Of a DNA stretch of 64,000 nt, positions 24,104 through 26,623 are shown in pieces. A model generated the notes under the pieces. The model searched no databases. It was not told the origin of the DNA and saw only the letters and a program-made list of their open reading frames with translations. Origin of the DNA: Deferribacteraceae bacterium V6Fe1 (GTDB lineage: Bacteria; Chrysiogenota; Deferribacteres; Deferribacterales; Deferrivibrionaceae); the NCBI GenBank assembly GCA_022813675.1, contig CP063375.1:756001-820000 (forward strand), read 5' to 3'. The first letter of the stretch is position 1. Each line of letters begins with the position of its first letter. Made by a program: the position numbers and the translations under genes.

Positions 24104-24131
24104 TTGACAAAATTCAAATACTTATTAATAT
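24104..24131 (+). promoter_or_regulatory. Promoter of the tandem-Hfq gene
   Basis: TTGACA (24104-24109), 16-base spacer, TAATAT (24126-24131). The predicted transcript would start near 24138, giving a leader of about 18 bases with GGGGGAA in front of the ATG at 24156. Confidence 0.6.
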
Positions 24132-24155
24132 TAGCTAATTTAATTCGGGGGAATT

Positions 24156-24662
24156 ATGTATCTTTACGCACAACTTGAGTTTGTTTTTCTGCAAAATGCA
24201 AGGGTGGGCGACATCCCTTTGCTTTTTATTATGTCTAATAAAGAGCGTTTTAGAGGCAAAATTGTAGATTTTGATCAATATACTATCATAATTGATGATG
24301 CCGGTGTGAAAATTAACATTGCCAAAAGGGATATAGCTACAATAGCTTCCGCTAAGGATGTTATTGATGTGGAATATATAAGTAAGACTTATTATCAGGC
24401 ACACAAAGGTAGACATCCAAAGCATGTTAGGCCTCCGATGCAGGATATTTTTCTTAACGAGGTGCGTAAATCAAGGTCTCCTGTTGTAGCTTATTTAAGA
24501 AACGGTGTAAAAGTAAAAGGGCTCTTAATCGGGTTTGATGACTATACAATGCTGACATCTTTTGAAGATAGGCAACAGCTGATTTATAAAACTTCTGTAT
24601 CAACGGTTTATCCTCTGTATCAGGTTGGTGAAATAATTAAATACGATGGAGAGAGAGGGTAG
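24156..24662 (+). CDS. Protein with two Hfq/Sm domains in tandem
   Basis: RNA chaperone-like protein of 168 residues containing two Sm folds. Domain 2 (about 95-156) is a nearly standard Hfq: MQDIFLNEVR, then PVVAYLRNGVKVKGLLIGFDDY, then IYKTSVSTVYP, where the usual YKHAIST Sm2 motif has His replaced by Thr. Domain 1 (about 6-66) is degenerate: FLQNARVGDIPLLFIMSNKE, FDQYTIII and INIAKRDIATI, lacking the Tyr-Lys-His trio. A 30-residue basic linker (KTYYQAHKGRHPKHVRPP) joins them. Ordinary Hfq is a hexamer of single domains, so three copies of this protein could build a two-faced pseudo-hexamer. It has its own promoter and precedes a receiver gene by 2 bases. No other hfq is in the window. Confidence 0.88.
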   Translation: MYLYAQLEFVFLQNARVGDIPLLFIMSNKERFRGKIVDFDQYTIIIDDAGVKINIAKRDIATIASAKDVIDVEYISKTYYQAHKGRHPKHVRPPMQDIFLNEVRKSRSPVVAYLRNGVKVKGLLIGFDDYTMLTSFEDRQQLIYKTSVSTVYPLYQVGEIIKYDGERG

Positions 24663-24664
24663 CA

Positions 24665-25036
24665 ATGGATAAATCCGAAATAAAAATTTTAGTGGTAGAT
24701 GACGAAGAACATACAAGATTAGGGTATGCCGAAGTGTTAAAGCTTGAAGGCTATAATGTTGATGCCGCTGAGAATGGCTTGGAAGGATTAAAGTTTGCCA
24801 AAAATAAAAGTTATGATGTTATAGTGACAGACCTTAGAATGCCTGAGATGGACGGAGCTCAATTCATTGAAAATTTAAGAAAATTCGACAAAGAGGTAAA
24901 GGTTGTAGTTATTACAGCTTTTGGAAGCTTTAAATCATACAAGCACCTCACTTCCCTTGGTGCTGTTGAATATATAAATAAACCTGTTAGAGCAAAAGAT
25001 TTAAAAGAAGCGATAACAAAAGTGCTAAGTTTATAG
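24665..25036 (+). CDS. Single-domain response regulator (receiver only)
   Basis: CheY-like receiver of 123 residues with no output domain. The acidic pair Asp12-Asp13, phospho-acceptor Asp56 (VTDLRMP), Thr in VITAFGS and Lys106 (NKPVRA) are all present, so it should be phosphorylatable. It starts 2 bases after the tandem-Hfq gene and is probably co-transcribed with it. No histidine kinase lies nearby. The stop overlaps the convergent ferredoxin-ASKHA gene by 6 bases. Confidence 0.92.
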   Translation: MDKSEIKILVVDDEEHTRLGYAEVLKLEGYNVDAAENGLEGLKFAKNKSYDVIVTDLRMPEMDGAQFIENLRKFDKEVKVVVITAFGSFKSYKHLTSLGAVEYINKPVRAKDLKEAITKVLSL

Positions 25037-26623
25037 TGTTTTCAAGTTTCTGTTAAAAATTTCGGAAAAACTACTGTCGTTGTGCAATTTGATTTGCAAT
25101 GTTTCTTTAATCTTATTTTGCGTATAATTTTCAATTGTTGGCATTGAAAAAAACTTGGCCGCCAAAACAGTAGGGTCTCCGGTAAAAAAGGAAACTTTTT
25201 TAGAATATTTTTTCGGAATAATGTTAATATCCAGCATATTATTGATAAGATTATCAAAATTTACAAAACTGTTTACGCTGATATTTTGTATTTTTCCATA
25301 ATTTGCTTCAATGTATTCAAAAAGCGAATTTAGGATAACTTTGAGATATTTTATCTTTTCAATGAATTCTTCATCAATATAAAGGCTTACGCCCTTTTTC
25401 CTGTATATATAAAATATTTTGTTATCATCGATTTGTGATATTTTAACCAGTATCTCAATAGGTAGTTTATCCATTAAGCTTTGTCTTTCGTTAAAAGTAT
25501 AATCGTTATTAACTATTCCATATAAAATCATATTTCTGAGTGCCTGAAGCTTTGCTGTTATTGTTAAAGAATCAGGGTCAACCAGAGGTTCTTTGATTTT
25601 CAAATTTCCAAAATCCTCAGAAATTTCAAGTATAGGATTTTTCCCTTCGAGAAAAAACAGGTCTTCAAAGTTGTATTCGTCTGTAATGTAACGTAAATCG
25701 ATGTTAAATATGACTCCATTTGAGTCTACATAGTGTGCACTTGAAAGAGAATCGAGGGACAAAATAAGACTATTATTTTTTAAATTTGATGTAAGTCTGA
25801 AAAATGATGTAAGCTGTCGCGGAGAATTTATAGGCTGTATGACTTCACAAAATACCGAGCCTAACTCAAAGGAGTAATAATTAACAATGTCAAGAAGATT
25901 TTTCCCTTCAAAGTGAGGCTTTTCAAGAACAAAAATAATTCTTTCAAAATCAGGAACTTTAATGTTTTCGTAGATAAAATCCGAAACGGTATTATCATCT
26001 ATTAAGTTTACCAAAGTTTCAGTGGTTTTAACTGTACCGGAGTGAGAAATATTGTCTATTCCGCTTGAAAAAAAGTAATATTTAATCCCAGTATTGAATT
26101 GAATAAGAATAAGACCGTCGCTGGTTGAATGCTCTTCCTTTATGATTGGAGTATTATTTTTTTCAGTTTCACTTGTAGATGGTGATATAATATTTTCATT
26201 TTCTTCATCGATAGCGTTATCGGTATTTGCAGTGGCAGACTCACTTTGTTTATCTTTGGTAGCCGGCTTGTCAGATTTTTTGACACCTATTATTTCAGGA
26301 TTATAGTTTTCCCTTATAATCCATTCTTCTGTATCTACAATGATATCTTGCTTAATTGTGTATTCACAAGCAAGTCTGTATCCTGCATCCAAGTTAACGA
26401 TAGCAATCATTAACCTGTCTTTTTTAGTGGGTTTGTTAATCTCTTTGCCGTCAACGGCTGTGACTTTTACCTTGCATTTGCCACATTGACCGTCACCTGA
26501 GCAGAGAGATTGTATAGGAATATTATTATCTTTTAGTACTTGAAAAAGTTTGGCACCAGATTTTGCTTCTACGGTAATGTTTTTATTCTTAACAATTACC
26601 TTATATTTTTTAGAAAAAAACAT
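25031..26623 (-). CDS. [2Fe-2S] ferredoxin fused to a degenerate ASKHA (RACo/DUF4445-like) domain
   Basis: 530 residues. The N-terminal plant-type ferredoxin binds a [2Fe-2S] cluster through Cys41, Cys47, Cys50 and Cys86 (LCSGDGQCGKC...LACEY). An acidic low-complexity linker follows (about 100-170). The rest is divergent; its layout, with DFGNLKIKEPLVDPDS and a C-terminal FDNLINNMLDINIIPKKYS...FFTGDPTVLAAKFF, parallels the DUF4445 domain of reductive activators of corrinoid proteins. The DxGTTT-type phosphate loops of that family are missing, so ATP binding is doubtful. The start touches the glnQ stop, which suggests an operon with the amino-acid transporter. No corrinoid protein or methyltransferase is encoded nearby. 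Confidence 0.7.
   Translation of the reverse strand: MFFSKKYKVIVKNKNITVEAKSGAKLFQVLKDNNIPIQSLCSGDGQCGKCKVKVTAVDGKEINKPTKKDRLMIAIVNLDAGYRLACEYTIKQDIIVDTEEWIIRENYNPEIIGVKKSDKPATKDKQSESATANTDNAIDEENENIISPSTSETEKNNTPIIKEEHSTSDGLILIQFNTGIKYYFFSSGIDNISHSGTVKTTETLVNLIDDNTVSDFIYENIKVPDFERIIFVLEKPHFEGKNLLDIVNYYSFELGSVFCEVIQPINSPRQLTSFFRLTSNLKNNSLILSLDSLSSAHYVDSNGVIFNIDLRYITDEYNFEDLFFLEGKNPILEISEDFGNLKIKEPLVDPDSLTITAKLQALRNMILYGIVNNDYTFNERQSLMDKLPIEILVKISQIDDNKIFYIYRKKGVSLYIDEEFIEKIKYLKVILNSLFEYIEANYGKIQNISVNSFVNFDNLINNMLDINIIPKKYSKKVSFFTGDPTVLAAKFFSMPTIENYTQNKIKETLQIKLHNDSSFSEIFNRNLKTL

Follow-up and report, generated by a model that had tools for sequence, protein, structure and literature searches.

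A conserved two-domain Hfq paralog of the Deferribacterales, encoded beside a receiver domain, may be a signal-controlled Hfq

In Deferribacteraceae bacterium V6Fe1, a 168-amino-acid open reading frame (positions 24156–24662, forward strand, of the 64,000-nucleotide stretch that we analyzed, which we will call the window) lies just upstream of a gene for a receiver domain. Does this frame really encode two dissimilar Hfq/Sm domains, and if so, what might such a protein do? We will call this two-domain Hfq paralog tHfq.

Each half of tHfq is recognizable as Hfq by itself. The N-terminal domain (residues 10–69; 24183–24362), tested alone, matches the Pfam model for Hfq (PF17209) with 35.8 bits (E = 6e-9). 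The C-terminal domain (residues 95–155; 24438–24620) is near-canonical, with YKT in place of YKH, and scores 78.8 bits (E = 2e-22). Both are above the model's curated cutoff of 27 bits, so the prediction of two dissimilar Hfq/Sm folds in one frame holds up. The original prediction had also named an Sm match for the first domain as a key check, and besides the Pfam hit, hhalign aligned a profile of the N-terminal half (22 sequences) to canonical Hfq with a probability of 96.8%, an E value of 2.5e-10, and a score of 52.8. As a control, 20 column-shuffled profiles scored just 8–15. In a sequence search, the N-terminal half alone also matched Hfq chains from the PDB (best E = 2.8e-4). The whole protein scores 109.6 bits against PF17209 and is accepted by TIGR02383 (85.9, cutoff 61.7), but it is below the cutoff of NF001602 (85.5 instead of 95).

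In the AF2 model of the monomer (pTM 0.76), each half has the alpha1 helix and five beta strands of the Hfq-type Sm fold. The pLDDT is above 90 across most of the N-terminal domain, and 26 of the 168 residues are below 50. That the pTM is this high, with confident domains, despite these low-confidence residues suggests that the two domains have a defined mutual arrangement. The domains are joined by a conserved basic linker (residues 70–94; 24363–24437), whose middle is predicted to be disordered, and are followed by a tail (24621–24659) with a conserved EIIKY at residues 159–163. When we compared the model to the PDB with Foldseek, the top matches were Hfq chains, each aligning over about one domain. 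The matches include crystal structures of Pseudomonas Hfq with the substitutions H57T and H57A, so loss of His57 leaves the fold standing. Hfq is usually a homohexamer of single-domain chains, while each chain of tHfq has two.

tHfq is a real gene: its dN/dS against a congener is about 0.02 (0.005/0.288), and its conservation extends across the order. Across 25 genomes, it has no frame breaks. It does not, however, stand in for hfq, as the original label of "an Hfq" might suggest. A separate standard hfq elsewhere in the genome had been named in advance as a result that would count against the original prediction, and we found one: a canonical 74-amino-acid Hfq with an intact YKH (YKHAIST) is encoded at G000:C1:1868782, 1.09 Mb from tHfq. 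This rules out tHfq as the sole Hfq, and the 24 other genomes with tHfq have a canonical hfq as well.

Among 51 genomes of Deferribacterota, tHfq is present in 25, all from one order; Calditerrivibrio, Seleniivibrio, and Denitrovibrio are among the named relatives. All 25 genomes with tHfq carry canonical hfq too, and none has tHfq alone. Four genomes have canonical hfq only (G008, which is 92% complete, and three from family f10). In 20 other genomes of the same order (G029–G048, families f6 and f7), canonical hfq, tHfq, and the receiver are all absent. Pairwise distances between tHfq proteins track those of canonical Hfq (r = 0.93), which is consistent with vertical descent of an old paralog. 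In a tree of single domains, which has few columns and should be trusted for broad groups only, the N-terminal domains form one group (100/99) and the C-terminal domains are apart from canonical Hfq, although two sequences from family f8 blur their unity.

We also considered mobile elements as the source of tHfq. A plasmid origin was rejected: the plasmid collection yielded no match at the DNA level, and the distances follow canonical Hfq. A phage origin was rejected as well: the best phage match, in MT835489.1, has a single domain and lies next to miaA. That record is deposited as "Bacteriophage sp.", yet it has miaA and hfq in the bacterial order and probably is a bacterial contig.

Two genomes from family f9 (G004 and G005) encode a 151-amino-acid protein (L064 4898–5350 and L065 5360–5812) whose C-terminal Hfq domain has YKP instead of YKH. 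About 88 residues precede this domain, which places it as in tHfq. The gene adjoins a gene for Hsp90 (htpG-like) and has no receiver beside it. The structural model was uninformative (pLDDT 32). This protein may be a far ortholog of tHfq.

The roles of the proximal, rim, and distal residues of Hfq are well established, so we asked which of them are retained in 22 tHfq sequences (in E. coli Hfq numbering unless stated otherwise). In the C-terminal domain, Q8, D9, N13, R16, F39, D40, Y55, and K56 are invariant. Position 17 is always lysine, and the position of F42 is tyrosine (20 sequences) or phenylalanine (2). In the numbering of tHfq, the invariant residues include Q96, N101, R104, K105, Y144, and K145. 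The position of H57 is asparagine (8), threonine (7), or serine (7), and never histidine; the predicted change of this histidine to threonine is thus correct for V6Fe1 and is one of three replacements in the family. The position of Q41 is aspartate or asparagine (11 each). Most of the distal site is retained: the position of Y25 is tyrosine or phenylalanine in 20 of the 22 sequences, G29, I30 (as valine), Q52, and T61 are kept in 20, and K31 is kept in 19.

Most of the binding residues are gone from the N-terminal domain. It was predicted to have lost all of Tyr-Lys-His; the tyrosine and the histidine are indeed variable or replaced, but the lysine (Lys56, or K57 of tHfq) is retained in 22 of 22 sequences. 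E8 and F9 (which just precede the domain), F39, D40, and Y42 are invariant as well. The distal stretch is NKERFRG in 20 of 22 sequences. Neither domain, then, has the YKH signature of Hfq: the 22 sequences have xKx in the N-terminal domain and YK[N/T/S] in the C-terminal domain. From these sequence patterns, the two Sm domains have most likely diverged for different roles.

The divergent family f8 (43–46% identity) indicates which parts of tHfq are most constrained. Strands beta1–beta4 of both domains are only 20–28% identical to other tHfq, while alpha1 of the C-terminal domain (73%), residues 70–84 of the linker (61%), and the EIIKY tail (76%) are kept. The linker as a whole has the basic consensus IDxxYISKxYYxxHxGxHPKHxRPP. 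FDxY also persists in family f8. The distal residues are eroded in both domains, so binding at the distal face may not be the activity that is conserved.

A constant feature of the locus is the gene for a stand-alone receiver domain of 123 amino acids (REC; 24665–25036, forward strand), which begins 2 nucleotides after the stop codon of tHfq. Its purine-rich ribosome-binding stretch sits within the last codons of tHfq. REC matches Response_reg with 104.8 bits, and like CheY-type receivers it has the acidic pair, the phosphorylated aspartate, the threonine, and the lysine of a full phosphorylation site (D12, D13, D56, T84, and K106, all invariant). Its alpha1 is unusually fixed (EEHTRxGY). Coupling of tHfq to a receiver gene had been predicted, and the data are stronger than that claim: REC is directly downstream of tHfq on the same strand in 25 of 25 genomes. 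The spacing to the first possible start codon of REC ranges from -29 to +6 nucleotides (22 genomes measured). When we searched the 51 genomes with a profile of REC (E ≤ 1e-30), we found one match in each genome with tHfq, always beside tHfq, and none in the 26 genomes without it. The conserved arrangement strongly supports a shared operon. The genomes with tHfq share a long history, so these co-occurrences are not independent and amount to a few gain or loss events. Furthermore, the distances of tHfq and REC are correlated with r = 0.39 (versus 0.93 for tHfq and canonical Hfq), and we did not find a mirror-tree sign of co-evolution beyond co-inheritance. REC could equally regulate tHfq, be regulated alongside it, or have its effect on some third partner.

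The other neighbors of tHfq are not conserved. hflX does lie nearby, as was noted originally, but hflX (on the other strand), moeA, and a pseudouridine synthase are neighbors of tHfq only in this genus, so the link is local and we rejected an operon link to hflX or moeA. Elsewhere, tHfq and REC are flanked by gyrB-recF-dnaN (family f5), tuf (f2), or yceD (f3). That the surrounding genes change completely while REC stays argues for a partnership between tHfq and REC. In 20 of 25 genomes, REC is followed by a convergent gene for a Fer2-containing protein with an AcsV-like N-terminus (25031–26623, reverse strand, in the window). This protein is mostly 27–43% identical to its relatives outside the genus, and it is probably a neighbor rather than a part of the tHfq system. 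Upstream of tHfq, a promoter-like TTGACA-N16/17-TAATAT (24104–24132, forward strand) matches the consensus at 10 of 12 positions, but this is weak evidence: the region has 7 sites that are as good, versus 4.7 expected from shuffling. There are no Rfam matches between 20 and 29 kb in the window.

We propose that tHfq is a second, specialized Hfq-class protein of the Deferribacterales that binds RNA as an alternating ring and is switched by REC; we give this an even chance of being right. We infer the stoichiometry of tHfq, its binding of RNA, and its contact with the receiver as follows. N- and C-terminal domains would alternate around the ring, and three chains would form a pseudo-hexamer. This three-chain ring is the simplest geometry, and such a trimer, with its three-fold sites, is plausible. 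The three C-terminal domains would supply near-canonical proximal and rim sites (Q, N, R, K, Y, and K) and distal sites, while the three N-terminal domains would contribute a distal patch of another, basic kind and a proximal site with only the lysine. The ring might bind a subset of RNAs, or it might bind the RNAs of Hfq with an altered preference for U-tails. REC, which would be made together with tHfq, might bind it when phosphorylated, perhaps at the linker, the tail, or the N-terminal domain, and so switch either how it binds RNA or how it competes with canonical Hfq. The most specific version, a phosphorylation-gated chaperone in which the co-translated receiver directly switches RNA binding by an asymmetric three-chain ring (three of its sites canonical-like, the other three altered), is a tentative one that we would not bet on as a whole.

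A different assembly would be a double ring of six full-length chains, in which a ring of N-terminal domains and a ring of C-terminal domains are joined by the 25-residue linkers. The linker, with its disordered middle, is long enough for this. Also, the N-terminal domains form one group in the tree and the C-terminal domains are alike across species, so each kind could self-assemble as Hfq does. However, the pTM of the monomer suggests a fixed arrangement of the domains, and we consider the double ring quite unlikely. tHfq might instead act through canonical Hfq, by entering its rings or by competing for its RNAs, as a regulator or antagonist that is switched by the receiver. The C-terminal domain is close to Hfq, and tHfq occurs only with canonical hfq (25 genomes of its order have both, none has tHfq alone, and 20 have neither). 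But the joint absence is confined to families f6 and f7 and may reflect one or two losses; we view this reading as unlikely.

We also considered that tHfq might have kept the Sm fold to bind proteins, with the receiver as a regulated partner. Cyanobacterial Hfq has been proposed to bind the pilus motor. Such a scaffold would account for the loss of proximal residues from one domain and of His57 from the other, for the erosion of the distal residues in family f8, and for the linker and tail being among the best-conserved stretches. But invariant Q96, N101, R104, K105, Y144, K145, and K57 fit with retained contact to RNA, and we think that a pure scaffold is improbable. The same substitutions in binding residues could be read as the decay of a functionless duplicate, but given the low dN/dS, the invariant motifs, and the unbroken frames, that is almost certainly wrong.

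The presence of a normal Hfq as well, and the constant pairing with REC, suggest that tHfq is a second Hfq that has received little notice and may respond to signals. Automatic annotation would label tHfq as "RNA chaperone Hfq" (TIGR02383 accepts it and NF010691 rejects it), and the label "Hfq" would hide that these bacteria have two Hfq-class proteins. If the ring does alternate between unequal domains, it would offer a natural test of the number of proximal, distal, and rim sites that an Hfq ring needs. With REC as its constant partner, tHfq also offers a way to test for a direct link between phospho-signaling and RNA chaperoning. If the chaperone is gated by phosphorylation, then two-component signaling would act on it without transcription.

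Among the matches listed from about 330 genomes outside the phylum (a list that stops short of the weakest matches), we saw no tandem Hfq. In family f20 of another phylum (G060, G208, and G347; L103 3857–4930, L104 3597–4621, and L105 4068–5110), two adjacent genes each encode a protein of about 170–190 amino acids with a winged-helix-like N-terminal segment (a weak Pfam match) and a C-terminal Hfq domain with YKH. The pair sits beside a normal hfq, and this pattern of three matches recurs in the sampled genomes of f20; other families of that phylum mostly have two single-domain Hfqs. In G274, from another phylum (L107 3401–3715 and L108 2969–3319), a normal hfq is adjoined by genes for two short proteins, each with one weakly matching Hfq/Sm domain.

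Searches of the openly accessible literature found no account of the two-domain build of tHfq, its site pattern, or its receiver, and no papers that use the terms "tandem Hfq" or "two-domain Hfq". A tandem Hfq has been published for Zymomonas and six other species of Sphingomonadales (PMC2877685), so the original remark on one in an alphaproteobacterium was accurate, and that paper raised a three-chain ring as a question. These proteins (such as ZMO0347 of Zymomonas and WP_281177287.1 of Sphingomonas parapaucimobilis) resemble tHfq in having two domains and a similar length. But the Sphingomonas protein is symmetric, with YKH in both domains, and is encoded by the hfq gene itself (ntrC...hfq-hflX), while tHfq is asymmetric, has YKH in neither domain, and is a paralog in addition to canonical hfq, outside any hfq-hflX locus. 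In the single-domain tree, the sphingomonad domains group with Hfq of Caulobacter, apart from both domains of tHfq, which makes separate origins of the two tandem forms most likely. Furthermore, tHfq scores 73.8 against NF010691 (PRK14091), far from its cutoff of 270. Judging by its length of 176 positions and by PRK14091, NF010691 is probably the model for the sphingomonad tandem.

Compared to canonical Hfq (PF17209, TIGR02383), tHfq shares the fold, the proximal and rim residues of the C-terminal domain, and YK, but it has two domains, no His57, an altered N-terminal domain, and a receiver as its partner. Two Hfq-like proteins have been counted in four species of Deferribacteraceae, described only as "possibly sharing paralog relationships", in a passage that does not mention tandem domains, changes to the sites, or a receiver (PMC7074383). 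As far as that passage goes, the second of these proteins is very probably tHfq. Burkholderia likewise encodes a second, long Hfq (Hfq2) along with a normal one, but as described there, Hfq2 has one structured Hfq part and a disordered glycine-rich C-terminus (PMC7074383), unlike tHfq.
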